Shown here: piece by piece, positions 4,014-61,762 of the stretch
Layout of the letters: every line of letters starts with the position of its first letter
Position numbering within the stretch: the stretch's first letter is position 1
Source: Oscillospiraceae bacterium
GTDB lineage: Bacteria > Bacillota > Clostridia > Oscillospirales > Ruminococcaceae
DNA length: 64,000 nucleotides
Reading direction: 5' to 3'
Assembly: GCA_015067145.1 (NCBI GenBank)
Contig: SVNA01000006.1
Span: forward strand, 22,798 to 86,797
The notes under the pieces: model-generated
Seen by the model: only the letters and a program-made list of their open reading frames with translations
What the model was told of the DNA's origin: nothing
Database searches by the model: none
Program-made: the position numbers and the translations under genes

Positions 4014-5028
4014 CTTCCTTTACAGCTTTCTTTACAAAACGGCCTTTGATTCTGTCGATAAGGCCCATAATACCTCTTGGTTCAAAACAGGTTACAAGAA
4101 CGATGAGAATACCGAAAACTATCTGGTCCAGACCGGAGCCGGAAGCACCTGTGAGACGTCGCATGATAAGTTCCAGCGAGTAGTAGATAACAGAACCGAT
4201 AATCGGGCCGTATACGTTGCCGATACCGCCGAGAACCGTTACCAGAACGAAAATCATGGATACGCTGAGAGGAAATACTGTGATAGCGTCGATATATTTG
4301 AAGAACTGTGCAAAGAATGTGCCGCCGATTGCTGCGATAAATGCGGACAGACACATTGCCAGCAATTTGTAGTTTCTTGGGTTGATACCGATGGATTCTG
4401 CCACTTCGTGACTTTCACGGATGGCTTTCCAGTAGAAACCAACCTTGGAGTTTTCAAGCAGTACACATACAACAAACACGATGCAGAACACTGCCAGTGT
4501 TGTAAAGAGGAATGGCAGACGGTTTCTTACATCAAGACTGAGCCATGCAATTTTGCCCCATGCGTTTTTGCTTGCATCAGGAATGAGAACGGTGATAGGT
4601 GTAAGGGCGATACCGTCGCCTGCGCCTACCCATTTCCATGTACTGAAGATAGTTTTGAGAATTTCGGCCACACACAGCGTTGCGATTGCAAAATAGTGCC
4701 CTTTCAGCTTGAACATCTGGAAGTTTACCATAAATGCAAGTATAACTGCGATAACGCCACCCACAAGCATACCAATCCAAGGTGTGATGTGGAAGTATTC
4801 CAGCATAATTGTGGAGGTGTATGCACCTACACCAAAGTATGCTGCGTGACCAAAGGATGTCTGGCCTGTAAAACCTGTGATAAGGTTCCAGGCTTCACCT
4901 ACCATTGCGTAGATGAGGATATAAATAATAACGTTGTGAACGTCTGTTGTATTACCTATAGTGAGCGGAACGATGATAAAAGCCGCCAGCAAGATAAATG
5001 CGAGTGAATGTTTTTTCAATGTTACCAT
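3997..5028 (-). CDS. livM: Branched-chain amino acid ABC transporter permease LivM
   Basis: Multi-TM; GFTGQTSFGHAAYFGVGAYTS, VLGGIGNVYGPIIGS. Confidence 0.92.
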   Translation of the reverse strand: MVTLKKHSLAFILLAAFIIVPLTIGNTTDVHNVIIYILIYAMVGEAWNLITGFTGQTSFGHAAYFGVGAYTSTIMLEYFHITPWIGMLVGGVIAVILAFMVNFQMFKLKGHYFAIATLCVAEILKTIFSTWKWVGAGDGIALTPITVLIPDASKNAWGKIAWLSLDVRNRLPFLFTTLAVFCIVFVVCVLLENSKVGFYWKAIRESHEVAESIGINPRNYKLLAMCLSAFIAAIGGTFFAQFFKYIDAITVFPLSVSMIFVLVTVLGGIGNVYGPIIGSVIYYSLELIMRRLTGASGSGLDQIVFGILIVLVTCFEPRGIMGLIDRIKGRFVKKAVKEGEASE

Positions 5029-5876
5029 CCAAACAACCCCCTCGGTTTAATCTGTATAACAATCAGATAGATTGCAAATACAACAAGATATTTAAATGAT
5101 GTGCCGATAAAATATCCGCCAACTGCTTCTGCAACGCCTATGATAAGGCCTGCGTAAAGTGCACCCTTGATGTTGCCAAAACCGCCCAGTGCAACGATTA
5201 CGAATGCGATTGTACTGTAGAGAGCACAGGCTTCGGGGTAGATAGGTGTAAAGGAAGCCATAAGGGCTGCTGCTGCACCTACACATGCACCTGAAAGACC
5301 AAATGTGATTGCAAAGATACGGTTTGTGTTGATACCCATCAGCTGTGCTGCTGATTTGTTCATGGATGTGGCTTTGATTGCAACGCCTGTTTTTGTCTTG
5401 TTCATAAACAGGATAACTGCAAAGGTAAGCAGCAGTGCACCTGCCGCTGCCACAATATAGTCATGACGTATGTAAAGCCCGCCGATTTTAAAGCTGTCGC
5501 TGCTTACAAGCGGGTCTGTAACATTGCGGTAGTTGGCTGTCCAGAAAAACTGTGTAAGGTTTTTGAGAACCATACTGAGACCGAACGTTGCCAGAAGTGC
5601 TGTAAGGCCTGGGGCATTGAGCACCCTTTTGATAACAAGGAAGTATGTGAGAACACCGAGAATAAATATAAGTACCACTACAAGCGGCAGAGAGAGCAGC
5701 GGGTCAAGCCCTACCAGTGCCCAGATCCAGAAGGCGCCGTACATACCCCATAAGAGAAATTCACCGTGGGCGAAGTTAACAATATCCATAACGCCCCACG
5801 TTAATGTAAGACCAACGGCCACCAGGGCATATACAAACCCGTTGAGGAGACCGTTTATAACAATTTGTCCTAACAT
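5022..5876 (-). CDS. livH: Branched-chain amino acid ABC transporter permease LivH
   Basis: Multi-TM; LTWGVMDIVNFAHGEFLLWGMY, VALGGFGNIKGALYAGLIIG. Confidence 0.93.
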   Translation of the reverse strand: MLGQIVINGLLNGFVYALVAVGLTLTWGVMDIVNFAHGEFLLWGMYGAFWIWALVGLDPLLSLPLVVVLIFILGVLTYFLVIKRVLNAPGLTALLATFGLSMVLKNLTQFFWTANYRNVTDPLVSSDSFKIGGLYIRHDYIVAAAGALLLTFAVILFMNKTKTGVAIKATSMNKSAAQLMGINTNRIFAITFGLSGACVGAAAALMASFTPIYPEACALYSTIAFVIVALGGFGNIKGALYAGLIIGVAEAVGGYFIGTSFKYLVVFAIYLIVIQIKPRGLFGW

Positions 5877-5996
5877 CTGATAACCTCCTGCTTGTGTATA
5901 TATGGCAGAAAACTGCCAGAGTAATCCGTGAATAAATGTTTTTTCCTCCGTCTGTATGTATGACGAAAGATGATGCAGATTTTGTCATTGTATGAA

Positions 5997-6031
5997 AACA
6001 GGCTGGCCAGATTTACCCAAGCCAGCCTGTT
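5997..6031. terminator. Hairpin between livK and livH
   Basis: aacaggctggc...gccagcctgtt stem located between the binding-protein gene and the permease genes. Confidence 0.6.
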
Positions 6032-6096
6032 ATTGCTATGTCAAAAGTGTTTTAACAATTTTTTAAGTTCTCTTTATGTCTTATAATAAGCCTTTA

Positions 6097-7362
6097 TTAT
6101 TCGAGAACAGGGTCAGAAGTTGTAAATTCGTTGATTGGGTAAACAACTTCGTATTTGCCGTCGATAAGCTGTGTTACAACTGCAGGCATAACGATGTTCT
6201 GGCCGTATTCGTCAAATTTAACCTTCTGTGTGATAAGGTATGGTGCTGCAAATTCGTTTGCTTTAAGTGCTGCATTGATAGCTTCCGGGTCAGCAGAGCC
6301 TGCTGCTTCGATAGCCTGTGCTGCGATGATGATGGAAGCAAATTCTTCAAGAGCCGGACCGTCGATATCCTGACCTGTTTTTGCTTTGTAGAGGTCGTTT
6401 ACATAAGAGAATACTGGGAGTTTGTCAGCAAGTTCTGCTGTACATGCCTGGCCGCCTGCGTAGCTGTTTACGCCGAGGTCTGTTGCAACTTTAGCAAAGG
6501 AAGCATCCTGGAAGCCGCCGCAGTAGCAGATGATTGCTTTAGGGAAGAATTCGATGGAGGAGTATGCCTGTGCAAAGAGTGTAAGGTCGCCGATGTAGGA
6601 AGCCTGGAATACTACGTCTGCGCCTGTTGCTTTAATCTGTGCTGCTTCTGTGTCGAAGGATGTGGATGTGGATTCGTAAGAAACGCTGCCCACTACTTCG
6701 AAGCCGTATTCTGCTGCATATTTCTGGAACATTTCGTCAGCGTGTATACCGTAGCTGTTGTTGATCCAAGCGATTGCTACTTTTTTGATACCTGCATCGT
6801 ATGTATCGTTGAGGTATGTGAGATATTCAAAGAACTCGTCGGATTCCTGTGCGTCGTTTGCTGCAACGCGGTTGAAGATGGAACCGAAGCTGTATGTTGT
6901 ACCGTCTGTGAGGGATGCGGAGGAGGAAGAACCACAAACCATTGGTACGCCGTATTCCAGAGCCTGTGTCGCTACGGAAGCGGAACAGCCTGAGTTGTAA
7001 GCACCTGTGATTGCCACAACGCCTGCGTCAAGCAGGTTTGCTGCTTCTGTTGTTGCAACCTCTGCACTTGCCTGGTGGTCTGCAAATTTGATTTCGATTT
7101 TCTGACCGCCCAGGATACCTTCGTTTTTAGCAAGATCCCAGTCGAGGTCATGAGAGTTGTTGATAATATCTTCTGCAACTTCCATAGCTGCTTTGAGATA
7201 TTCACCTGTTGATGAGCCTGTCAGTGGAAGAACTGCACCGATGGAAACTGTACCGCCAGATGCTTCGCCGCCTTCTGGTGCAGGTGCTGGTTCGCTGCCA
7301 CCGCAAGCTACCATTGATAATGCCAATGCTCCTGAAATAAGGAATGCCAATAATTTTTTCAT
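6097..7362 (-). CDS. livK: Branched-chain amino acid ABC transporter substrate-binding lipoprotein
   Basis: Lipobox LSMVACGG; periplasmic-binding-protein sequence IGAVLPLTGSSTGEYLKAAMEVAEDIIN; adjacent livHMGF. Confidence 0.92.
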   Translation of the reverse strand: MKKLLAFLISGALALSMVACGGSEPAPAPEGGEASGGTVSIGAVLPLTGSSTGEYLKAAMEVAEDIINNSHDLDWDLAKNEGILGGQKIEIKFADHQASAEVATTEAANLLDAGVVAITGAYNSGCSASVATQALEYGVPMVCGSSSSASLTDGTTYSFGSIFNRVAANDAQESDEFFEYLTYLNDTYDAGIKKVAIAWINNSYGIHADEMFQKYAAEYGFEVVGSVSYESTSTSFDTEAAQIKATGADVVFQASYIGDLTLFAQAYSSIEFFPKAIICYCGGFQDASFAKVATDLGVNSYAGGQACTAELADKLPVFSYVNDLYKAKTGQDIDGPALEEFASIIIAAQAIEAAGSADPEAINAALKANEFAAPYLITQKVKFDEYGQNIVMPAVVTQLIDGKYEVVYPINEFTTSDPVLE

Positions 7363-7665: not shown

Positions 7666-9081
7666 TCAGTATTCGCCTTTGGCTGCCTCCAGTTCAAACC
7701 AGAACACAGCACCTTTTCCCTCTTCGCTTTCCACGCCAAAGGATGCACTGTGAGCCATGAGGATACCCTTTACGATGGACAAGCCAAGGCCTATTCCTCC
7801 GTTTACACGGTCATAGTCTTTGGATTGGGTAAAGTATCTTTCCCAGATAAGGTTCTGGTCCTCTTTTGCAATGCCGGAACCATGGTCCTGTATCTCCCAG
7901 CGGATTTTGCCGCCGCTGCGTTTTATGGATATCTCCACCACGTCATCTGCCGGAGAATATCGTATGGCGTTGCTGATAAAGTTGTGGATTACACGCTGTA
8001 TGCGGTGCATATCCCCAAAGGCATAGGTATCATCATCTGCTTCCACACGGATTTTTACATCCTTGAGGACACATTCAACCTCCTGGAATTTTTTCACCAC
8101 ACCTTCAGTGAGCCCATGGAGAGAGAAATCGCTCATTTCGTAGTTGATACTGCCCGACTGTATACGGGAATACTCCAGAATTTCGCTTATCATAGCACTC
8201 ATCCAGTCTGCTTCCTTGACGATTATCTGTATATGTTCTCCCCTTTTTACAGGGTTGTGGCCCGATATATCCCTGATAAGTTCGGCATAAGCCTTGATGC
8301 TTGCCAGCGGTGTACGCAGGTCGTGGGAGATTGTGGCAAGGAAGTTGCGTTTTTCCTGATCCAGCTTTGCCAGCTCGGCTGTGGCATGGTTCAGGGTACG
8401 GCTGAGCTTGTCTATCTCCTGAATGTTGGATTCCTCAAAAACAACATCGTAGCTGCCCTCTGCCAGCTTCTCGGTTTTTTCGGTCATTACAACCAGTGGC
8501 TCAGCAATTCTTTTTGCCATAAAGTAGGATATAATGATTGCCATTGCCACCATAGTGGCAAGGAGGATAAACAGGTTTTCACGCAGAATGTTACGCACCG
8601 TCTCCAGTGGACCCATAGGGTTTACAATAAATATATACAGGCTGTCCTGAGGGCTGCTTTCATTGAGTATCTTTGTGCCGTAAACCACAAAGTTTGTGTT
8701 TGGCACCAGCGGGTCTTTTATATTTTCTATGTAATGTTCCTGTCCCGACTCTTCATATCTGCGGATAAAATCACGGGCGTTAAGCGGGTTCGGGTCGGAA
8801 ATCTGCAGCACCAGTGAACCCTGATTTGCACCCTTTGAGTTGAATATGTGCACAGGTACTTCATTTCGGTAAAACTCTATGGAAACCGCCTGGCTGAACT
8901 TTACGTTACGCCATTCGTATGCCACAGTTTCACCGATGGATTCTATCTTGTCAATCTCCCTCTGATAGTACATTCTGTCAAAGGAAAAAAACTGCATAAG
9001 CCAGATAACCAGTGCTATGGCTGCCGCAAAGATGGCAAAATATTTCCACAGTCTTGCGTGCAGTGTTCGTGTATATTTCAT
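7666..9081 (-). CDS. Sensor histidine kinase (HAMP, HisKA, HATPase_c)
   Basis: ATISHDLRTPLASIKAYAELI H-box, N-box NFISNAIRYSP, GSGIAKED, GGIGLGLSIVKGI. Confidence 0.95.
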   Translation of the reverse strand: MKYTRTLHARLWKYFAIFAAAIALVIWLMQFFSFDRMYYQREIDKIESIGETVAYEWRNVKFSQAVSIEFYRNEVPVHIFNSKGANQGSLVLQISDPNPLNARDFIRRYEESGQEHYIENIKDPLVPNTNFVVYGTKILNESSPQDSLYIFIVNPMGPLETVRNILRENLFILLATMVAMAIIISYFMAKRIAEPLVVMTEKTEKLAEGSYDVVFEESNIQEIDKLSRTLNHATAELAKLDQEKRNFLATISHDLRTPLASIKAYAELIRDISGHNPVKRGEHIQIIVKEADWMSAMISEILEYSRIQSGSINYEMSDFSLHGLTEGVVKKFQEVECVLKDVKIRVEADDDTYAFGDMHRIQRVIHNFISNAIRYSPADDVVEISIKRSGGKIRWEIQDHGSGIAKEDQNLIWERYFTQSKDYDRVNGGIGLGLSIVKGILMAHSASFGVESEEGKGAVFWFELEAAKGEY

Positions 9082-9776
9082 CGTTCAGGCACCTCGAATT
9101 TATAGCCCATGCTACGCAGGGTAACGACAAAGTCCCTGTATCTGCCCAGACTGTTGCGGATAAGCTTTATGTGTGTGTCCACTATTCTGCCGTTTCCGGG
9201 AAACTCGTAGCCGAACACGTCCGCCAGCAACGCCTCGCGGGAGAGAGCTTTGTTTTTGTTTTTAACAAGGTAGAACAGCAGGTCATAGTCTTTCGGTGCA
9301 AGCATAACCTCTTCCCCGTCCACAAAAACGCTGCGTCGTTCCATATCTATAATAAGTGTTTCGTATTTGAAGCTGTCGCTCTGAATATGTACCGTTTCGG
9401 GTGTTTTTCTCTCGTAACGCCGCAGCACCACCTTGATTCTTGCCATAAGTTCCATAGGTGAAAAAGGCTTCACCATATAGTCTTCTATGCCCAGCTCAAA
9501 GCCGAACAGCTTGTCATATTCTTCACCGCGGGCAGACAGCATTATAACCGGAATGTCCCCCAGCTTTCTTATCTCTCTGCACACAGAAAAACCATCCATT
9601 GTAGGCAGCATAACGTCCAGAACCACCACATCAAATTTTTGGTTGCGGCACATCTGCACAGCCTCGCGTCCGTCGGAGGCATCGGTGACGTTGAACCCTT
9701 CAAACTCGCAGTATTCGCGGATAACATTTCTGATATTCGCTTCGTCGTCTACAACCAGAATATTGTACATCGCCAT
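9078..9776 (-). CDS. OmpR-family response regulator paired with the kinase
   Basis: YNILVVDDEANIRN, VVLDVMLPTMDGFS, VKPFSP, DTHIKLIRNSLGRYRDFVVTLRSMGYKFE; 4-nt overlap with the kinase gene. Confidence 0.95.
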   Translation of the reverse strand: MAMYNILVVDDEANIRNVIREYCEFEGFNVTDASDGREAVQMCRNQKFDVVVLDVMLPTMDGFSVCREIRKLGDIPVIMLSARGEEYDKLFGFELGIEDYMVKPFSPMELMARIKVVLRRYERKTPETVHIQSDSFKYETLIIDMERRSVFVDGEEVMLAPKDYDLLFYLVKNKNKALSREALLADVFGYEFPGNGRIVDTHIKLIRNSLGRYRDFVVTLRSMGYKFEVPER

Positions 9777-10161: not shown

Positions 10162-10566
10162 ATGAAAAAAGCAGGCATACTGAACAGTGACATTTCCCGT
10201 GTTCTGTCCTATCTTGGTCACACAGACCGCATCTGCATCGGCGACTGCGGCCTGCCGATACCTGACTGTACAGAGCGTATCGACCTGGCACTGTGTTTCG
10301 GTGAACCCGGCTTTATACGCACACTTTCTGTCGTTGCAGAGGATATGAAGGTGGAAAAAATTGTACTGGCTGAGGAGATCAAAACCCAGAATCCGGCAGT
10401 ACTCAAGGCAATCGAAGATCTTTTTGCAGGACAGAATGTGGAGACAGAATTTGTCCCTCACTCTGAACTTAAAGAACAGACAAAAGAATGTAAAGCAGTT
10501 ATCAGAACGGGCGAAACAACCCCATACGCAAATATCATTTTACAGTCCGGCTGTATTTTTGCTTAA
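10162..10566 (+). CDS. rbsD: D-ribose pyranase RbsD
   Basis: [34 protein letters not shown]; first gene of the rbs operon; ATG chosen inside the longer listed ORF. Confidence 0.93.
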
Positions 10567-10587: not shown

Positions 10588-12072
10588 ATGAATATCGAGA
10601 TGAGAGGCATCAACAAGTCCTTTGGCTCCAACCAGGTTCTTAAAGATGCCGGCTTCTTGCTGAAAGATGGCGAAGTTCATGCTCTTATGGGCGAAAACGG
10701 TGCGGGCAAATCCACACTGATGAAGATTCTCACAGGCGTTTACACAAAGGACGCCGGTACAATCTTTGTTGACGGCGTGGAAGTAAACTACAAAAACCCG
10801 CAGGAAGCTGAAAAAGCCGGTATCGTTTTCATCTATCAGGAAATCAACTCCCTTTTTGACCTTACCGTAGAAGAAAACCTGTTTATGGGCAAGGAAATCA
10901 CAAAGGGCTTCGGCATCTGCGACAAGAAAGCCATGCGTGCAAAAGCTCAGGAAGTTATGGACCGCCTGGGCGTATCCATTCCAATCGATGCTGTAATGGG
11001 CGATCTGTCCGTTGGTCAGCAGCAGATGGTGGAAATCTGTAAAGCTTTGATGGTAGACGCAAAGGTTCTTATCATGGACGAACCTACAGCAGCCCTTACA
11101 CAGAGCGAAACTGAAGTTCTGTTTGAGGTTATGAAAGGCCTTGTTGAAAAGGGCGTTTCCATCGTTTACATCTCCCACCGTATGGAAGAAATTTTTGAAC
11201 TGTGCGACAGAATTACAATTCTGCGTGACGGTTCCTACATAGGCACAGAATACATCAAGGACATCACAATGGATGATGTTGTTAAGATGATGATCGGCCG
11301 TGAAATCGGCGAACGCTTCCCACAGCGCGATGTTACAATCGGCGACGAGGTTATCAGAGTTGAAAACCTTTGCCACCCAAGATACTTTAAAGACGTAAAC
11401 TTCTCTGTAAACGCAGGCGAAGTATTGGGCGTATCCGGTCTTATGGGTGCAGGCCGTACAGAAATTATGCACGCTATCTTTGGCAATATGCCTGATGCTA
11501 CAGGCAAAATAATCATCGAGGGCAAGGAAGTTTCCATCAAAAACCCAAGAGATGCCATCGCAGCAGGCATCGGCTTTATCACAGAGGACAGAAAGACAGA
11601 AGGTCTTCTTCTTGAAAAGCCAATCAGCGACAATATCGAGGTTGCAAACCTGAAAAAAGTTTCAATCCGCAATATCTTAAACCCTAAAAAACAGATTGAA
11701 CTTGTTAAACGCGGTATCGAAGAATTCAGAATCAAATGCTTTGGTCCACAGCACGAATGCAACAACCTGTCCGGCGGTAACCAGCAGAAGGTTGTTCTGG
11801 CAAAATGGATCTACACAGAGCCAAAAATTCTTATTCTTGACGAACCTACACGCGGCGTAGACATCGGCGCTAAAAAAGAAATTTACAGTGTTATCAACGA
11901 CCTTGCAGCAAAAGGCGTTGCAGTTATCCTTGTTTCCTCCGAACTTCCGGAAGTTCTTGGCATGTCCGACAGAATTATGGTAGTACACGAAGGCCATATA
12001 ACAGGTATTATCGATGCAGCAACAGCTGACCAGGAAAAAGTTATGACATTGGCAACAGGAGGAAGTTTATAA
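10588..12072 (+). CDS. rbsA: Ribose ABC transporter ATPase RbsA (two ABC domains)
   Basis: MGENGAGKSTLMKILTGVY, LSVGQQQMVEICKAL, second signature LSGGNQQKVVLAKWI. Confidence 0.95.
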   Translation: MNIEMRGINKSFGSNQVLKDAGFLLKDGEVHALMGENGAGKSTLMKILTGVYTKDAGTIFVDGVEVNYKNPQEAEKAGIVFIYQEINSLFDLTVEENLFMGKEITKGFGICDKKAMRAKAQEVMDRLGVSIPIDAVMGDLSVGQQQMVEICKALMVDAKVLIMDEPTAALTQSETEVLFEVMKGLVEKGVSIVYISHRMEEIFELCDRITILRDGSYIGTEYIKDITMDDVVKMMIGREIGERFPQRDVTIGDEVIRVENLCHPRYFKDVNFSVNAGEVLGVSGLMGAGRTEIMHAIFGNMPDATGKIIIEGKEVSIKNPRDAIAAGIGFITEDRKTEGLLLEKPISDNIEVANLKKVSIRNILNPKKQIELVKRGIEEFRIKCFGPQHECNNLSGGNQQKVVLAKWIYTEPKILILDEPTRGVDIGAKKEIYSVINDLAAKGVAVILVSSELPEVLGMSDRIMVVHEGHITGIIDAATADQEKVMTLATGGSL

Positions 12073-13046
12073 TGAAAAAGGAAAAAAATATAGGTGCCAT
12101 AGTTGGCGAGTATGGTGCGTTTATTGCGCTGTTGATTTTGTTTGTATTTCTCAGCGTTATCAGCCCGGAATTCCGCCAGCCAAGCAACCTGCTTAACCTT
12201 TTGCGTCAGGCATCCTTTAACGGCCTTATCGCATTTGGTATGACTTGTGTTATTCTCGCAGACGGTATCGACCTTTCCGTTGGTTCCGTATTTGCTCTCA
12301 GTGCAGTTATCTGTGCTGAGCTTATCATGATGGGTATGCCTGCCATCGTTTGTATCCTCGGTGCACTTGTTGCAGGTACACTCATGGGTGCATTCAGTGG
12401 TCTGCTGGTAACAAAAGGCCGTCTGCAGCCATTTATCGCTACATTGGTAACAATGACAGCTTACCGCGGTCTTGCAAAAATTCTCACAGACGCAAAACCA
12501 ATCTCCCGTCTTGCTGAAAACCTCACAAGCGGTTCTTTCCTCTTCAAAGCTCTTGGTAAAGGTAACCTTGTTCCAATCTTTGCACAGGATGTAAAATTCC
12601 CAATCCCTGCTGTAATTCTGCTTGTTTCCTTTGCAATCTTCTACTTTATGCTTAACAAAACAACATACGGCAGAAAAGTTTACGCAACAGGTTCCAACGC
12701 AAAATGTGCAAACCTTGTTGGTGTAAACACACAGAAAATCAAAATTTCCACATACGCAATCTCCGGCTTTATGGCAGCACTTGCAGGCCTTATGATGATT
12801 TCCCGTGTTAACTCCGCACAGCCAACACTTGGCGAAGGCTACGAACTTGACGCTATCGCAGCTGTAGCACTTGGCGGTACATCCATGAGCGGCGGCCGCG
12901 GTAAAATCAGCGGCACAGTTGCAGGTGTTCTCATCATCGCAGCTCTCAACAACGGTCTTAACATCCTTGGTGTTCAGTCTTACTATCAGGACGTTATCAA
13001 AGCTATCGTTATCCTCGTTGCTGTTCTTTCCGACCGCAAGAGATAA
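12072..13046 (+). CDS. rbsC: Ribose ABC transporter permease RbsC
   Basis: Multi-TM; GIDLSVGSVFALSAV, LGGTSMSGGRGKISGTVAGVLII. Confidence 0.95.
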   Translation: MKKEKNIGAIVGEYGAFIALLILFVFLSVISPEFRQPSNLLNLLRQASFNGLIAFGMTCVILADGIDLSVGSVFALSAVICAELIMMGMPAIVCILGALVAGTLMGAFSGLLVTKGRLQPFIATLVTMTAYRGLAKILTDAKPISRLAENLTSGSFLFKALGKGNLVPIFAQDVKFPIPAVILLVSFAIFYFMLNKTTYGRKVYATGSNAKCANLVGVNTQKIKISTYAISGFMAALAGLMMISRVNSAQPTLGEGYELDAIAAVALGGTSMSGGRGKISGTVAGVLIIAALNNGLNILGVQSYYQDVIKAIVILVAVLSDRKR

Positions 13047-13072: not shown

Positions 13073-15715
13073 ATGAAGAAAATATTATCATTGATTCTCA
13101 GCTTTGCTATGGTCCTGACCATGACAGGCTGTATGATTACAATCGACGGTGAGGAAAACCTCTCCCAGACAAATGCCGCAAACGGCACAATCGGTCTTTC
13201 TGTTTCCACACAGAACAACCCATTCTTTGTAACACTTGTTGAAGGTGCAAAAGCACAGGCAAACAAACTTGGTGTTACACTCAGCGTTGCTGATGCAGGC
13301 GACGACGTTACAAAACAGGTTTCCGACATTGAAGACCTTGTTGCTACAGGTATTTCCGTTCTTATCGTTAACCCAGTTGACTCTGACGCTGTTACAGGTG
13401 CAGTTGAAGCTGCTATGGCAAAAGGCGTTAAAGTTATCAGCGTTGACCGTGCAGTTAACGGCGTGGAAATCGCTTGCCAGATTGCTTCCGACAACGTTCT
13501 CGGTGCAGAACTTGCAACACAGTACATCGTTGACACTCTTGGCGAAGGCGTAAAAGTTGCAGAACTGGAAGGTATCCCAGGTGCTTCCGCAGCTATCGAA
13601 AGAAGCGAAGGCTTCCACAAAGTTGCTGATACAAAACTGGATGTTGTAGCAAAACAGACAGCTAACTTTGACAGAACAGAAGGTATGTCCGTAATGGAAA
13701 ACATCCTTCAGGCAAACGGCGACGTTCAGGCTGTATTTGCAGCTAACGACGAAATGGCTCTCGGTGCAGTTGAAGCTATCAGCGGCGCAGGCAAAACAGT
13801 TATGGTTGTTGGCTTTGACGCAACAGATGACGCTATCGAAGCTATCAAAGCAGGCAGAATGGCTGGTACAATCGCACAGCAGCCAGCACTTATCGGTTCC
13901 ACAGCTGTTGACAACGCAGTTAAACTTATCGCAGGCGAAACAATCCCAACAGAAATCCCAGTTGAAGTTACTCTTGTAACAAAAGACAACGCAGACAGCT
14001 TTGGTGCTCCAGCTAAAGTTGAAGTAGTGGGCAACGGCAGCATCGGTCTTTCCGTTTCCACACAGAACAACCCATTCTTCGTAACACTTGTTGAAGGTGC
14101 AGAAGCTGCAGCTGAAAAACTTGGTGTTTCCATCAGCGTTGCTGACGCAGGTGACGACGTTACAAAACAGGTTTCCGACATCGAAGACCTTGTTGCTAAA
14201 GATATTTCCGTACTTATCGTAAACCCAGTTGACTCCGACGCTGTTACAGGTGCAGTTGAAGCAGCTATGGCTAAAGGCGTTCACGTAATTTCCGTTGACC
14301 GTGCAGTTAACGGCGTGGAAATCGCTTGTCAGATTGCTTCCGACAATATTCTCGGTGCAGAACTTGCAACACAGTTTATCGTTGACTCTCTCGGCGAAGG
14401 CGTTAAAGTTGCAGAACTTGAAGGTATCCCAGGTGCTTCCGCAGCTATCGAAAGAAGCGAAGGTTTCCACAATGTAGCAGATACAAAACTCAATGTAGTT
14501 GCTTCCCAGACAGCTAACTTTGACAGAACAGAAGGTATGTCCGTAATGGAAAACATCCTTCAGGCTAACGGCGACGTTCAGGCTGTATTTGCAGCTAACG
14601 ACGAAATGGCTCTCGGTGCTGTAGAAGCTATCAGCGGTGCAGGCAAAAAGGTTATGGTTGTTGGCTTTGACGCAACTGACGATGCTCTCGAAGCTATCAG
14701 AGCAGGCAGAATGGCAGGCACAGTAGCACAGCAGCCAGCTCTCATCGGCTCCACAGCTGTTGAAAACGCTGTAACTCTTATCGGCGGCACAGGCATTGCA
14801 AAATCCATCCCTGTTGAAGTTACACTTGTAACAAAAGACAATGTTGATACATTCAATCAGCCAAAAGGCGAAGCAGTTACAATCGTTGGCAACGGCTCCA
14901 TCGGCCTTGCAGTTTCCACACAGAACAACCCATTCTTCGTAACACTTGTTGAAGGTGCAGAAGATGCAGCAGAAAAACTTGGCGTTTCCATCAGCGTTGC
15001 TGACGCAGGCGACGACGTTACAAAACAGGCTTCCGACATTGAAGACCTTGTTGCAAAAGGCATCTCCGTTCTCATCGTAAACCCAGTTGACTCCGACGCT
15101 GTTACAAGTGCAGTTGAAGCTGCAATGGCTAAAGGTGTTCGCGTAATTTCCGTTGACCGTGCAGTTAACGGCGTAGAAATCGACTGCCAGATTGCTTCCG
15201 ACAACATTCTCGGTGCAGAGCTTGCAACACAGTTTATCGTTGACACACTTGGCGAAGGTGTTAAGGTTGCAGAACTTGAAGGTATCCCAGGTGCTTCCGC
15301 TGCTATCGAAAGAAGCGAAGGTTTCCACAATGTTGCTGATACAAAACTCAGCGTTGTAGCAAAACAGACAGCTAACTTTGACAGAACAGAAGGTATGTCC
15401 GTAATGGAAAACATCCTTCAGGCAAACGGCGACGTTCAGGCTGTATTCGCAGCTAACGACGAAATGGCTCTCGGTGCAGTTGAAGCTATCAGCGGTGCTG
15501 GCAAAACAGTTATGGTTGTTGGTTTCGACGCAACAGACGACGCTATCGAAGCTATCAAAGCAGGCAAAATGGCAGGCACAATCGCACAGCAGCCGGCACT
15601 CATCGGCAGCACAGCTGTTGAAAATGCAGTTAAACTTATCGGCGGCGAAGGCATTGCAAAATCCGTTCCTGTTGAAGTTACACTTGTTAACAAAGACAAC
15701 GTTAACAATTTCTAA
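13073..15715 (+). CDS. rbsB: Ribose-binding lipoprotein with three tandem RbsB domains
   Basis: Start taken at MKKILSLILSF within the listed ORF at 13058; lipobox LTMTGC; three full periplasmic-binding-protein 4-type units, each beginning NG(T/S)IGL(S/A)VSTQNNPFFVTLVEGA. Confidence 0.95.
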   Translation: MKKILSLILSFAMVLTMTGCMITIDGEENLSQTNAANGTIGLSVSTQNNPFFVTLVEGAKAQANKLGVTLSVADAGDDVTKQVSDIEDLVATGISVLIVNPVDSDAVTGAVEAAMAKGVKVISVDRAVNGVEIACQIASDNVLGAELATQYIVDTLGEGVKVAELEGIPGASAAIERSEGFHKVADTKLDVVAKQTANFDRTEGMSVMENILQANGDVQAVFAANDEMALGAVEAISGAGKTVMVVGFDATDDAIEAIKAGRMAGTIAQQPALIGSTAVDNAVKLIAGETIPTEIPVEVTLVTKDNADSFGAPAKVEVVGNGSIGLSVSTQNNPFFVTLVEGAEAAAEKLGVSISVADAGDDVTKQVSDIEDLVAKDISVLIVNPVDSDAVTGAVEAAMAKGVHVISVDRAVNGVEIACQIASDNILGAELATQFIVDSLGEGVKVAELEGIPGASAAIERSEGFHNVADTKLNVVASQTANFDRTEGMSVMENILQANGDVQAVFAANDEMALGAVEAISGAGKKVMVVGFDATDDALEAIRAGRMAGTVAQQPALIGSTAVENAVTLIGGTGIAKSIPVEVTLVTKDNVDTFNQPKGEAVTIVGNGSIGLAVSTQNNPFFVTLVEGAEDAAEKLGVSISVADAGDDVTKQASDIEDLVAKGISVLIVNPVDSDAVTSAVEAAMAKGVRVISVDRAVNGVEIDCQIASDNILGAELATQFIVDTLGEGVKVAELEGIPGASAAIERSEGFHNVADTKLSVVAKQTANFDRTEGMSVMENILQANGDVQAVFAANDEMALGAVEAISGAGKTVMVVGFDATDDAIEAIKAGKMAGTIAQQPALIGSTAVENAVKLIGGEGIAKSVPVEVTLVNKDNVNNF
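13181..14032 (+). repeat. rbsB internal tandem unit 1 (852 nt)
   Basis: Starts aacggcacaatcggtctttc; homologous to units 2 and 3. Confidence 0.92.
14033..14890 (+). repeat. rbsB internal tandem unit 2 (858 nt)
   Basis: Starts aacggcagcatcggtctttc. Confidence 0.92.
14891..15715 (+). repeat. rbsB internal tandem unit 3 (ends at the stop codon)
   Basis: Starts aacggctccatcggccttgc. Confidence 0.92.
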
Positions 15716-15730
15716 TTTGGAGAATCCCCT

Positions 15731-16618
15731 ATGAAAGTTTTATGTATAGGCTCTATGAATCTGGACTTTGTGTACAGTGTTGACCACATTGTTGCACCGG
15801 GCGAAACAGAAGCTTCCACAAGCCTTGACGTTTTCCTTGGCGGCAAAGGTATGAACCAGTCTGTTGCCCTTGCAAAAGCAGGTGCAGAAATCTACCACGG
15901 CGGCCTTATCGGCGAAGACGGCAGAGTTTTCCTCGATGCCTGCACAGAACACAATGTAAACGGCAAGCACATAAAGGTTGTGGAGGGCAAAACAGGCCAC
16001 GCAATCATCCAGAGAGATAAAAATGCACAGAACTGTATTCTTCTTTTCGGCGGTGCAAACCAGCTGCTGACAGAAGAATATGTAGACGGCGTACTCGAGG
16101 ATTTTGAGGCAGGAGATATTCTCCTGCTTCAGAACGAGGTTAATATGCTGCCTTACATCGTGGACAAAGCCTACGAAAAAGGTATGCAGATTGCCTTGAA
16201 CCCATCGCCATACGATGAAAAGCTGGATGCTGTTGATATGAGCAAAATCAGCTTCTTCCTGCTCAACGAAGTTGAGGGTGAACAGGTTACAGGTCACGAT
16301 GACCCTGACTACATCATCGCAAACCTCCTCGGTCTCTACCCTGAAGCAAAAATCGTGCTTACTCTGGGCAAAAACGGTGCAGTATACGCTGACAAAAACC
16401 AGAAACACTATCAGCCAATCTTCAAGGTACAGGCAGTTGACACAACAGCTGCAGGCGACACCTTTACAGGCTATTTCCTCGCTGCTGTAAGCGAAGGTAT
16501 GGAAGTGCCAAAGGCTCTTAAAATGGCTGCAAAGGCATCCTCCATCGCTGTAACAAGAGAAGGTGCAGTGCCTTCCATCCCTCTCAGAGCAGAGGTTGAA
16601 GCAGCTCTGGCTGAATAA
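15731..16618 (+). CDS. rbsK: Ribokinase (PfkB family)
   Basis: GSMNLDFVYSVDHIVAPGET, GGKGMNQSVALAKAGA, VDTTAAGDTFTGYFLAAV. Confidence 0.94.
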   Translation: MKVLCIGSMNLDFVYSVDHIVAPGETEASTSLDVFLGGKGMNQSVALAKAGAEIYHGGLIGEDGRVFLDACTEHNVNGKHIKVVEGKTGHAIIQRDKNAQNCILLFGGANQLLTEEYVDGVLEDFEAGDILLLQNEVNMLPYIVDKAYEKGMQIALNPSPYDEKLDAVDMSKISFFLLNEVEGEQVTGHDDPDYIIANLLGLYPEAKIVLTLGKNGAVYADKNQKHYQPIFKVQAVDTTAAGDTFTGYFLAAVSEGMEVPKALKMAAKASSIAVTREGAVPSIPLRAEVEAALAE

Positions 16619-16683
16619 TCCATATAAAATAAACGGCAGAGTATTCCCATACTTTGCCGTTTTATTGTATAATCAGATGGCAG

Positions 16684-16993: not shown

Positions 16994-18130
16994 GTGAACA
17001 ATCCATCAAAACACTGGGCTTCCGTCTGGGGAAATGCCGTTTCCGTAGCCGAAAACAGACCAGAAACCTACAGCAAAAATATAACTCTGCGATACCCTGT
17101 CTACTCTCATTTTGAGGGGGATGCGGTACGCCTTACCTTTGACAACTACTGCGGCACCGATGCCATAACCATTACAAAAACAACGGTGATGATTGATGAT
17201 AAGTTCCACACCGTGCTTTTTGGCGGCAGAGAAGGTGTTACAATCCCCGCTGGCGAAAACGCAGTCAGCGACCCGCTGTCCTGTCATATAAAAGCAAAAC
17301 GCACCTTCAACGTCAGCTTTTACCTTGAAGATTTTACCCAGATGCGTTCGGTGGTTTTCACTAAAGGTCCTATGTCTGTGGGCAGTTACGCCCTTGGCAA
17401 CCAGACCGAGACGGTGCTTTTTGATATGTGGAAAAGCCGAACAACCCACTACTTCTATTTTCTCAGCAATGTGTCGGTGTACACAGAAAAGAAGAACAGA
17501 ACGGTGGTGTGCTATGGCGACTCTATCACCGCACAGGACTGGCCTGACTATCTTGCCATGCGTTGCATCGACGAAGGCTGTGACAACACCGCCATTATCC
17601 GCCGTGCCACCAGCGGAAGCCGTATCCTGCGTGAATATGACTGCATCGTGTACGAGTCCTACGGGCTCAGGGGAAAAAAACGCTTTGACCACGAGGTACC
17701 TACAGACGGTGCCGACACAGTGCTTATCCAGCAGGGTATAAACGACATTATCCACCCTGTAGGCACAGAGGTTAACCCTTACCGCCCTATGAGCGACCTG
17801 CCCACTGTGGAGGAGCTTATCGAGGGTATGAAATACTATATATCCCTTGCCCGCAGCTACGGCTACAAGGTTTATGTGGGCACGCTGCTGCCTATCGAAG
17901 GCTGGCGTACCTATGCACCTTTCCGTGAAGAGATGCGTAATCAGTTCAACAGCTGGATACGAACAACAGACCTGATTGACGGCTATGTGGATTTTGACAA
18001 GGCTCTGGCCGACCCCGAAAACCCATCCGCAATGCTGGAAATATTCGACAGCGGCGACCATCTGCACCCAAGTGCCCTTGGCTACAAAGCCATGGCAGAT
18101 GCGGTGCTGAAAGAGATTATCGAAGGTTAA
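16994..18130 (+). CDS. SGNH/GDSL-type hydrolase (GTG start)
   Basis: CYGDSITAQDWPDYL block I, QQGINDI, SGDHLHPSALGYKAMADAV block V. Confidence 0.85.
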   Translation: MNNPSKHWASVWGNAVSVAENRPETYSKNITLRYPVYSHFEGDAVRLTFDNYCGTDAITITKTTVMIDDKFHTVLFGGREGVTIPAGENAVSDPLSCHIKAKRTFNVSFYLEDFTQMRSVVFTKGPMSVGSYALGNQTETVLFDMWKSRTTHYFYFLSNVSVYTEKKNRTVVCYGDSITAQDWPDYLAMRCIDEGCDNTAIIRRATSGSRILREYDCIVYESYGLRGKKRFDHEVPTDGADTVLIQQGINDIIHPVGTEVNPYRPMSDLPTVEELIEGMKYYISLARSYGYKVYVGTLLPIEGWRTYAPFREEMRNQFNSWIRTTDLIDGYVDFDKALADPENPSAMLEIFDSGDHLHPSALGYKAMADAVLKEIIEG

Positions 18131-18401: not shown

Positions 18402-19262
18402 ATGTTCGGAAAAAGACCTGACGGCAGAAGACTTAAAAATCTGGCACCTATCCAGATGATTATGCCTTATGTTATGAAAACCCGCAACGACAGCATGAAT
18501 ATGTACGAGGACACCTTTAACTGCGAACCCTGGGACGAGTACATAAAAGAAAAGGAAACCGAGGGACTTAAAATCGGCTATATGCACATTCTTATCGCCG
18601 CAATCGTACGCCTTATCGCTCTGCGTCCTCAGCTTAACCGTTTCTGCATGAACGGCAGAATTTATGCCAGACCAAAAATCTGGGTAAGCTTTGTTGTACA
18701 CCCAACTCTTCGCAACGACTCCGATGGAACAACCATCAAAATGTGCTTTGAAGGCACCGAGTCAATCACCGAAATTGCACAGATGCTGAACGAACGTGTT
18801 GCAAAGGAAACTGTACACCGCACCGAAGAAAATGATACCGACAAGCTTCTGCGTACTCTGATGCACGGTATCCCGGGCTTTCTCATTAAATTTGTGGTTG
18901 ATATTCTTATGTGGATGGATAAACACAACATTATGCCAAAAGCCATTGTGGAGCTGAGCCCTTTCCACACCTCTTTCTTTGTGACAAACCTCAAAAGCCT
19001 TGGCATCAACCATATCTTCCACCACACCTACAACTTTGGCACAACAGGTCTGTTTTTTGCTATGGGCAAGGAAAAGAAAATCCCTGTGGTGAAAAACGGA
19101 GAGATTGTGGAAGAAAAACATATGGGCTATGGCCTTGTATCTGACGAACGCTTCTGCGACGGGCTCTACTTTGCAAACAGCCTGCGTCTTATGAGAAAAT
19201 TTATGCGTAACCCGAAACTGCTGGAAGAAAAGCTGGACAAAAAGGTGGAAGATGTGGAATAG
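18402..19262 (+). CDS. Stand-alone 2-oxoacid dehydrogenase E2/CAT-like acyltransferase domain protein
   Basis: LKIGYMHILIAAIVRLIALRPQLNRF and C-terminal SDERFCDGLYFANSLRLMRKFMRNPKLLEE, resembling the E2 DHRxxDG end; no lipoyl domain. Confidence 0.75.
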   Translation: MFGKRPDGRRLKNLAPIQMIMPYVMKTRNDSMNMYEDTFNCEPWDEYIKEKETEGLKIGYMHILIAAIVRLIALRPQLNRFCMNGRIYARPKIWVSFVVHPTLRNDSDGTTIKMCFEGTESITEIAQMLNERVAKETVHRTEENDTDKLLRTLMHGIPGFLIKFVVDILMWMDKHNIMPKAIVELSPFHTSFFVTNLKSLGINHIFHHTYNFGTTGLFFAMGKEKKIPVVKNGEIVEEKHMGYGLVSDERFCDGLYFANSLRLMRKFMRNPKLLEEKLDKKVEDVE

Positions 19263-61634: not shown

Positions 61635-61646
61635 GCAAAATAAAAA

Positions 61647-61762
61647 GCCAGCACCACCCTATCTTCCCGGGACGTCTCCATCCAAGTATTTTCGGCACTG
61701 CTCAGTTTAACTACTGTGTTCGGAATGGGAACAGGTGGGACCTGAGTGCTATCGGCACTGAC
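61647..61762 (-). rRNA. rrf: 5S ribosomal RNA, isolated
   Basis: Minus strand GTCAGTGCCGATAGCACTCAGGTCCCACCTGTTCCCATTCCGAACACAGTAGTTAAACTGAGCAGTGCCGAAAATACTTGGATGGAGACGTCCCGGGAAGATAGGGTGGTGCTGGC; terminal stem GTCAGTGCC/GGTGCTGGC. Confidence 0.95.

Follow-up and report, generated by a model that had tools for sequence, protein, structure and literature searches.

Three tandem ribose-binding domains on one RbsB lipoprotein, and the recurrence of tandem RbsB in gut bacteria

We identified in an Oscillospiraceae bacterium an rbsB gene whose single open reading frame encodes three complete ribose-binding domains behind a lipoprotein signal. The gene lies in a stretch of 64,000 nucleotides, hereafter the window, and it belongs to an operon with one gene for each of the other subunits of the ribose importer. 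The original prediction of this architecture is confirmed by the open reading frame, by comparison of the repeats, and by Pfam and NCBIfam matches. Related two- and three-domain proteins occur in several gut lineages, and the additional domains probably raise the number of ribose receptors that serve each lipid anchor and each translocator. The evidence for the architecture, its distribution and the competing explanations are described below.

The operon is compact, with gene order rbsD-A-C-B-K, and a single RbsA and a single RbsC accompany the three-domain RbsB. Its features in the window are:

10162–10566, forward strand: rbsD, D-ribose pyranase (Pfam RbsD_FucU, 6e-47; NCBIfam PRK11797, 178 bits, cut-off 93)
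10588–12072, forward strand: rbsA, double-NBD ATPase of a CUT2 ribose importer (best NCBIfam match RbsA PRK10762, 582 bits, below the cut-off of 745)
12072–13046, forward strand: rbsC, permease (Pfam BPD_transp_2, 2.7e-43; best NCBIfam match ribose permease, 326 bits, below the cut-off of 398)
13073–15715, forward strand: rbsB, lipoprotein of 880 amino acids with three tandem ribose-binding domains (open reading frame, Pfam, NCBIfam)
15731–16618, forward strand: rbsK, ribokinase of the PfkB family (NCBIfam D_ribokin_bact, 227 bits, below the cut-off of 300)
16631–16662, forward strand: terminator-like hairpin of 14 base pairs, 3' of rbsK (terminator-type hairpin search)

RbsC is encoded as a separate open reading frame of 324 amino acids, and the substrate-binding domains reside on their own lipoprotein reading frame, unfused to the membrane subunit. 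The gaps flanking rbsB are 26 nucleotides on the 5' side and 15 on the 3' side, and no terminator-like sites were found in the window between rbsC, rbsB and rbsK. The gene begins with an ATG preceded by a GGAG ribosome-binding site. Its codon bias is strong (ENC 30.1 vs 42–50 in non-operon genes), which suggests high expression.

Several other features surround the operon. Divergent from it, on the reverse strand at 7666–9776, is a pair of genes for a sensor histidine kinase (HAMP, HisKA) and an OmpR-type response regulator. Directly past the operon lies a GDSL-type lipase/acylhydrolase gene (16994–18130, forward), followed by an open reading frame of 286 amino acids (18402–19262, forward) whose product weakly matches an acyltransferase model (2-oxoacid_dh, residues 192–274). 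A 5S rRNA (61646–61762, reverse) is the sole Rfam match at gathering score in the window.

The rbsB reading frame can be divided into the following parts:

13073–13132, forward strand: lipoprotein signal peptide with lipobox MTG-Cys20 (from sequence; lipobox kept in most relatives)
13133–13189, forward strand: disordered tether of 19 residues from the lipid-anchored cysteine to domain 1 (pLDDT below 50 at residues 15–36)
13190–14041, forward strand: repeat 1, RbsB domain 1 with linker 1 (repeat comparison, pocket alignment)
13982–14041, forward strand: linker 1, about 20 residues from the last strand of domain 1 to the first strand of domain 2 (AlphaFold2 pLDDT below 50, residues 312–321)
14042–14899, forward strand: repeat 2, RbsB domain 2 with linker 2 (repeat comparison, pocket alignment)
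14834–14899, forward strand: linker 2, about 22 residues from domain 2 to domain 3 (AlphaFold2 pLDDT below 50, residues 596–607)
14900–15712, forward strand: repeat 3, RbsB domain 3 (repeat comparison, pocket alignment)

The domains start at residues 40, 324 and 610, corresponding to direct-repeat spacings of 852 and 858 nucleotides. Lengths of 284, 286 and 275 residues had been proposed; the first two are correct, while the third domain has 271. The product has three matches to Pfam Peripla_BP_4 and three to NCBIfam RbsB. The NCBIfam RbsB model PRK10653 gives 885 bits against a cut-off of 337, a total that is inflated by summing over three domains, a single domain scoring about 295 on average. 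The protein thus departs from the usual RbsB architecture of one two-lobed domain, which is not essential to family membership.

The lipoprotein signal, MKKILSLILSFAMVLTMTG-C, was recognised from the sequence itself, and includes the lipobox cysteine. The lipobox MTGC is slightly atypical at position -3, where relatives have LTAC, LAGC or LVGC, and its cysteine is kept in at least 90% of the aligned tandem relatives. The tandem RbsB of metagenome-assembled genomes (MAGs) labelled Phascolarctobacterium (L046, L048) lacks the cysteine; these proteins may be soluble, or anchored through an uncleaved signal.

An AlphaFold2 model built with 20 tandem relatives consists of three well-folded domains (mean pLDDT 81.4, pTM 0.39) with a disordered tether and linkers. 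Given the low pTM, a fixed arrangement of the domains relative to one another is not predicted. The best 50 PDB matches are all single substrate-binding domains; Thermoanaerobacter tengcongensis RbsB (2ioy) is at the top, and entries for E. coli RbsB are among them.

The three repeats share 88.4, 88.4 and 90.2% of their nucleotides in pairwise comparisons and 90–92% of their amino acids. In every pair dN is 0.045–0.069 and dS is 0.32–0.34, so the three copies are roughly equidistant and all under purifying selection. The dN/dS ratio is about 0.1–0.2 between repeats, and also between each repeat and its orthologue in a second species of the genus (L011), so no domain is decaying. We mapped 14 pocket and hinge positions of E. 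coli RbsB onto each domain, taking the ribose ligand residues from published work (PMC3676853 and PMC2630998). N13, F15, F16, N64, D89, R90, S103, I132, R141, F164, N190, F214, D215 and Q235 are identical in all three. All of the ribose-binding motifs named in the original prediction likewise occur in every copy. These residues and the operon content support its proposal that a single lipid anchor carries three apparently functional sites and that one RbsAC is served by them.

The suggestion that substitutions among the copies (K, H or R at one site, ID or IA at another) tune affinity is not supported. The two sites are domain positions 81 and 95, equivalent to E. coli 84 and 98; they lie outside the ligand residues and are not conserved by position in relatives. 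Successive domains have K/R/R at position 81 in L011, K/H in L012, H/R in L014 and K/K in L015. The consensus at position 95 across tandem relatives is D, which makes the A in domains 1 and 2 of the window the odd state.

Among the 80 nearest RbsB loci in GTDB species genomes, 33 encode a tandem RbsB, 31 with two domains and two with three. The complete loci comprise 46 single-domain, 24 two-domain and two three-domain forms; a further seven two-domain loci and one single-domain locus are cut at a contig end. Carriers are MAGs labelled Oscillospiraceae, Lachnospiraceae, Oscillibacter, Phascolarctobacterium and Fibrobacter, and every source stated in a record name is animal gut or faeces. Every operon with enough flanking sequence contains rbsA, rbsC and rbsB as a single reading frame each, whether RbsB has one, two or three domains. 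Broader sampling gave a tandem protein in one of 21 other matches in the class, in none of three in the order sample, and in none of 39 other RbsB-bearing genomes of the phylum. In a remote RbsB family, nine of 11 proteins have two domains. The architecture is uncommon overall but recurrent. The original prediction named, as one outcome that would refute it, such proteins being common and already characterised. The first half of this applies in part, as they are rare overall yet recur in several gut lineages, and a search of the open-access literature found nothing relevant on tandem ribose or sugar-binding proteins.

On a tree built from RbsA and RbsC, and hence without RbsB itself, a single tandem clade is rejected (AU p 4e-40), and with it one ancestral tandem duplication. 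At least six changes between single and tandem forms are required on this tree, or seven with the remote family. Linker sequences in the main group and in the remote family are unrelated, which fits an independent origin. A linker motif, VEIVGNGS, is conserved across several genera, and leaves room for fewer duplications with homogenisation within the main group.

In a tree of RbsB domains, the copies within one protein tend to cluster together at the genus level in many genera, a pattern expected from either repeated duplication or concerted evolution. The copy number among species of the window's genus is three, three and two. Domain 1 is orthologous across these species, whereas in the window domain 2 clusters with domain 3, and in L011 both of these domains cluster with domain 2 of L012. 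The longest exact tract in L011, of 470 nucleotides between repeats 2 and 3, is the only long one. In the window, silent-site run tests for gene-conversion tracts among the repeats were not significant. An argument for recent duplication from low dS is weakened by the strong codon bias of rbsB.

A change in domain number also separates operons in MAGs labelled Fibrobacter. L064 is about 91–93% identical to L050 and L049, and these operons, with two domains and with one, differ by exactly one in-frame RbsB unit of 843 nucleotides. Within the aligned region (about 4300–6800) identity is 100% over the DNA that begins where the last domain ends and reaches into the first part of rbsK, as far as it was compared, and only about 77% over the first domain. 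We read this pattern of identity as a recombination footprint. The RbsDACBK genes of these three MAGs are nested among Bacillota operons on the RbsA and RbsC tree, reflecting either horizontal transfer or a binning error.

We also observed strong GC-rich stem-loops (MFE about -23 to -33) in the gap between rbsB and rbsK of Ruminococcus-type single-domain operons (L054–L069, L088 and others). Such a stem-loop is present in 14 of 23 single-domain loci and four of 25 tandem loci (Fisher p 0.002 in a naive test). Most hairpin loci form one clade; the association is confounded by phylogeny, and it is not significant among phylogenetically independent pairs. A model in which receptor dose is raised by domain number in place of an mRNA stem-loop fails this controlled test, and we retain it only as a lead.

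The window domains are like RbsB of E. coli, T. tengcongensis and Streptococcus agalactiae (PDB 2dri/1dbp, 2ioy and 7e7m) in fold, family and ribose contacts, with 49–53% identity to the E. coli and Thermoanaerobacter proteins and about 40% to that of S. agalactiae. The rbsDACBK gene order is likewise common to the window and known RbsB systems. However, the solved relatives are all single-domain proteins, whereas the window has three domains on one polypeptide. Another tandem protein, from the same taxonomic order as the window, is a YtfQ-like substrate-binding protein of 637 amino acids (genome G059, locus L008, 1471–3384, reverse strand), a lipoprotein-like chain with two sugar-binding domains of the Peripla_BP_4 type. 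Its two domains are divergent, with about 30% identity to RbsB, and the stretch examined at this locus contains no relative of rbsA or rbsC. It represents a different kind of tandem binding protein.

GlnPQ of Lactococcus lactis resembles the window in having several substrate-binding domains per translocator in covalent tandem, joined by short flexible linkers (14 amino acids in GlnPQ, about 20 in the window). In GlnPQ, fusion joins these domains to the membrane domain; they come from another family of binding proteins, which recognises amino acids, and differ in specificity. In contrast, the window has a separate CUT2-family lipoprotein with near-identical domains, up to three in number, whose pocket residues are the same and predict one specificity. 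In OpuA of L. lactis the binding domains are fused to transporter subunits, one each, whereas those of the window are in tandem on one lipoprotein. OpuA is similar in presenting more than one binding site of the same specificity to each translocator (PMC11065425). Internal terminators in clostridial ABC operons (PMC9045158) presumably have the same aim, an excess of receptor over translocator. However, they act on the mRNA, whereas the window multiplies coding sequence and has no terminator-like site around rbsB.

We consider it probable, if by no means certain, that the domains are independent and equivalent and that their multiplication increases the number of receptors per anchor and translocator. 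RbsB is the substrate-binding subunit of an ordinary CUT2 ribose importer, RbsABC, in which in-frame multiplication has turned one ribose-binding domain into three. Disordered linkers of about 20 residues connect the domains, and a single lipid anchor at the N-terminus holds them. Every domain would bind ribose independently through normal Venus-flytrap closure, and the domains would take turns docking on the single RbsC dimer. For each translation event, each lipid anchor and each translocator there would be three times as many ribose receptors, giving a higher rate of capture and delivery at low ribose, and rbsA, rbsC and rbsK stay at single dose in the tightly packed operon. In-frame recombination between repeats would change the copy number. 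The sequences themselves show what the protein is, its operon, the three intact sites, purifying selection acting on every domain, variation in copy number and repeated origin; simultaneous binding, docking by every domain and a kinetic benefit are what we infer from this arrangement. Domain 3 lies farthest from the membrane, and its reach to RbsC is putative.

This reading draws on better-studied importers. Connected by 14 amino acids, the tandem domains of GlnPQ bind independently of one another but compete to dock, and transport is slower when the linker is lengthened (PMC8025302). Binding proteins are normally required in excess over translocators, and cellulolytic Clostridia reach that excess via internal terminators (PMC9045158); by analogy, the rbsB coding sequence may fill the same role. 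Most relatives in the wider phylum have one domain, so any benefit must be conditional. The original prediction had invoked avidity or buffering to explain increased local capture. More receptor sites per anchor would still be the most reasonable function. Avidity in the strict sense is inapplicable to a monomeric sugar; greater site density, capture probability or buffering is the better description.

It is extremely unlikely that the repeat number is an artefact of mis-assembly. The assembly is fragmented and MAG-like (32 contigs, 83% complete), and contigs end within the repeats in three other members of the genus (G002, G006 and G013). However, the window repeats differ at about 10% of sites and share exact matches of at most 95 nucleotides, which ordinary short-read k-mers can span, so the copies are separable. 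Three domains were also assembled independently in L011 (Oscillospiraceae MAG SIG522, of the window's genus, G011) and in L019 (RGIG4187), and G393, which has a two-domain RbsB of a remote lineage, is a genome in one contig with a rated completeness of 100%. The true number could even exceed three, if identical units collapsed in assembly. A neutral or mutation-driven expansion, in which extra in-frame domains arise by unequal crossing-over in a highly expressed gene and are then tolerated and homogenised although they bring no benefit, deserves more weight, although we consider it rather unlikely. Copy number varies within one genus and between close Fibrobacter-labelled operons, and the 470-nucleotide exact stretch in L011 indicates that recombination is active. 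Against this, every pocket residue is kept in all domains under strong purifying selection, two-domain forms that arose repeatedly persist across genera of several families, and a neutral extra domain of 30 kDa would be costly in so codon-biased a gene.

The domains might instead differ in sugar or affinity, as do the two of GlnPQ (PMC8025302), and 37 of 270 positions do vary among the repeats. We regard such differentiation as improbable: the checked pocket and hinge positions are the same in each copy, the differences cited in its favour lie outside the pocket at sites without positional conservation, and copies within one protein are often more alike than the same copy across genera, the opposite of functional divergence. 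Finally, the added domains could be mainly spacers that reach through the cell wall and place the outer ribose sites farther from the membrane, as the tether has merely 19 residues and each domain lengthens the molecule. Ribose sites could be lost from a mere spacer, yet all are intact, and lineages with an outer membrane (MAGs labelled Phascolarctobacterium and Fibrobacter), where RbsB is periplasmic, have tandem forms too. This explanation is very unlikely, and receptor multiplication remains the reading we prefer.

Why ABC importers need receptor in excess of translocator, and what share of this is due to local supply, is a live question that has been studied mainly in GlnPQ and OpuA. Natural receptors of one, two and three domains with apparently the same specificity, working with closely related RbsAC in sister species, offer a ready series for work on receptor stoichiometry. 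More tentatively, and with the balance against it, unrelated gut lineages may repeatedly multiply the RbsB domain as a means of adjusting dose, with recombination between repeats matching domain number to the ribose supply and concerted evolution keeping the sites identical. If true, this would be an alternative, written in coding sequence, to the control of receptor excess through the mRNA. In gut bacteria a textbook protein has changed its architecture repeatedly and recently, and its recurrent doubling and tripling suggests that making the protein longer is a way for cells to increase the number of receptors.
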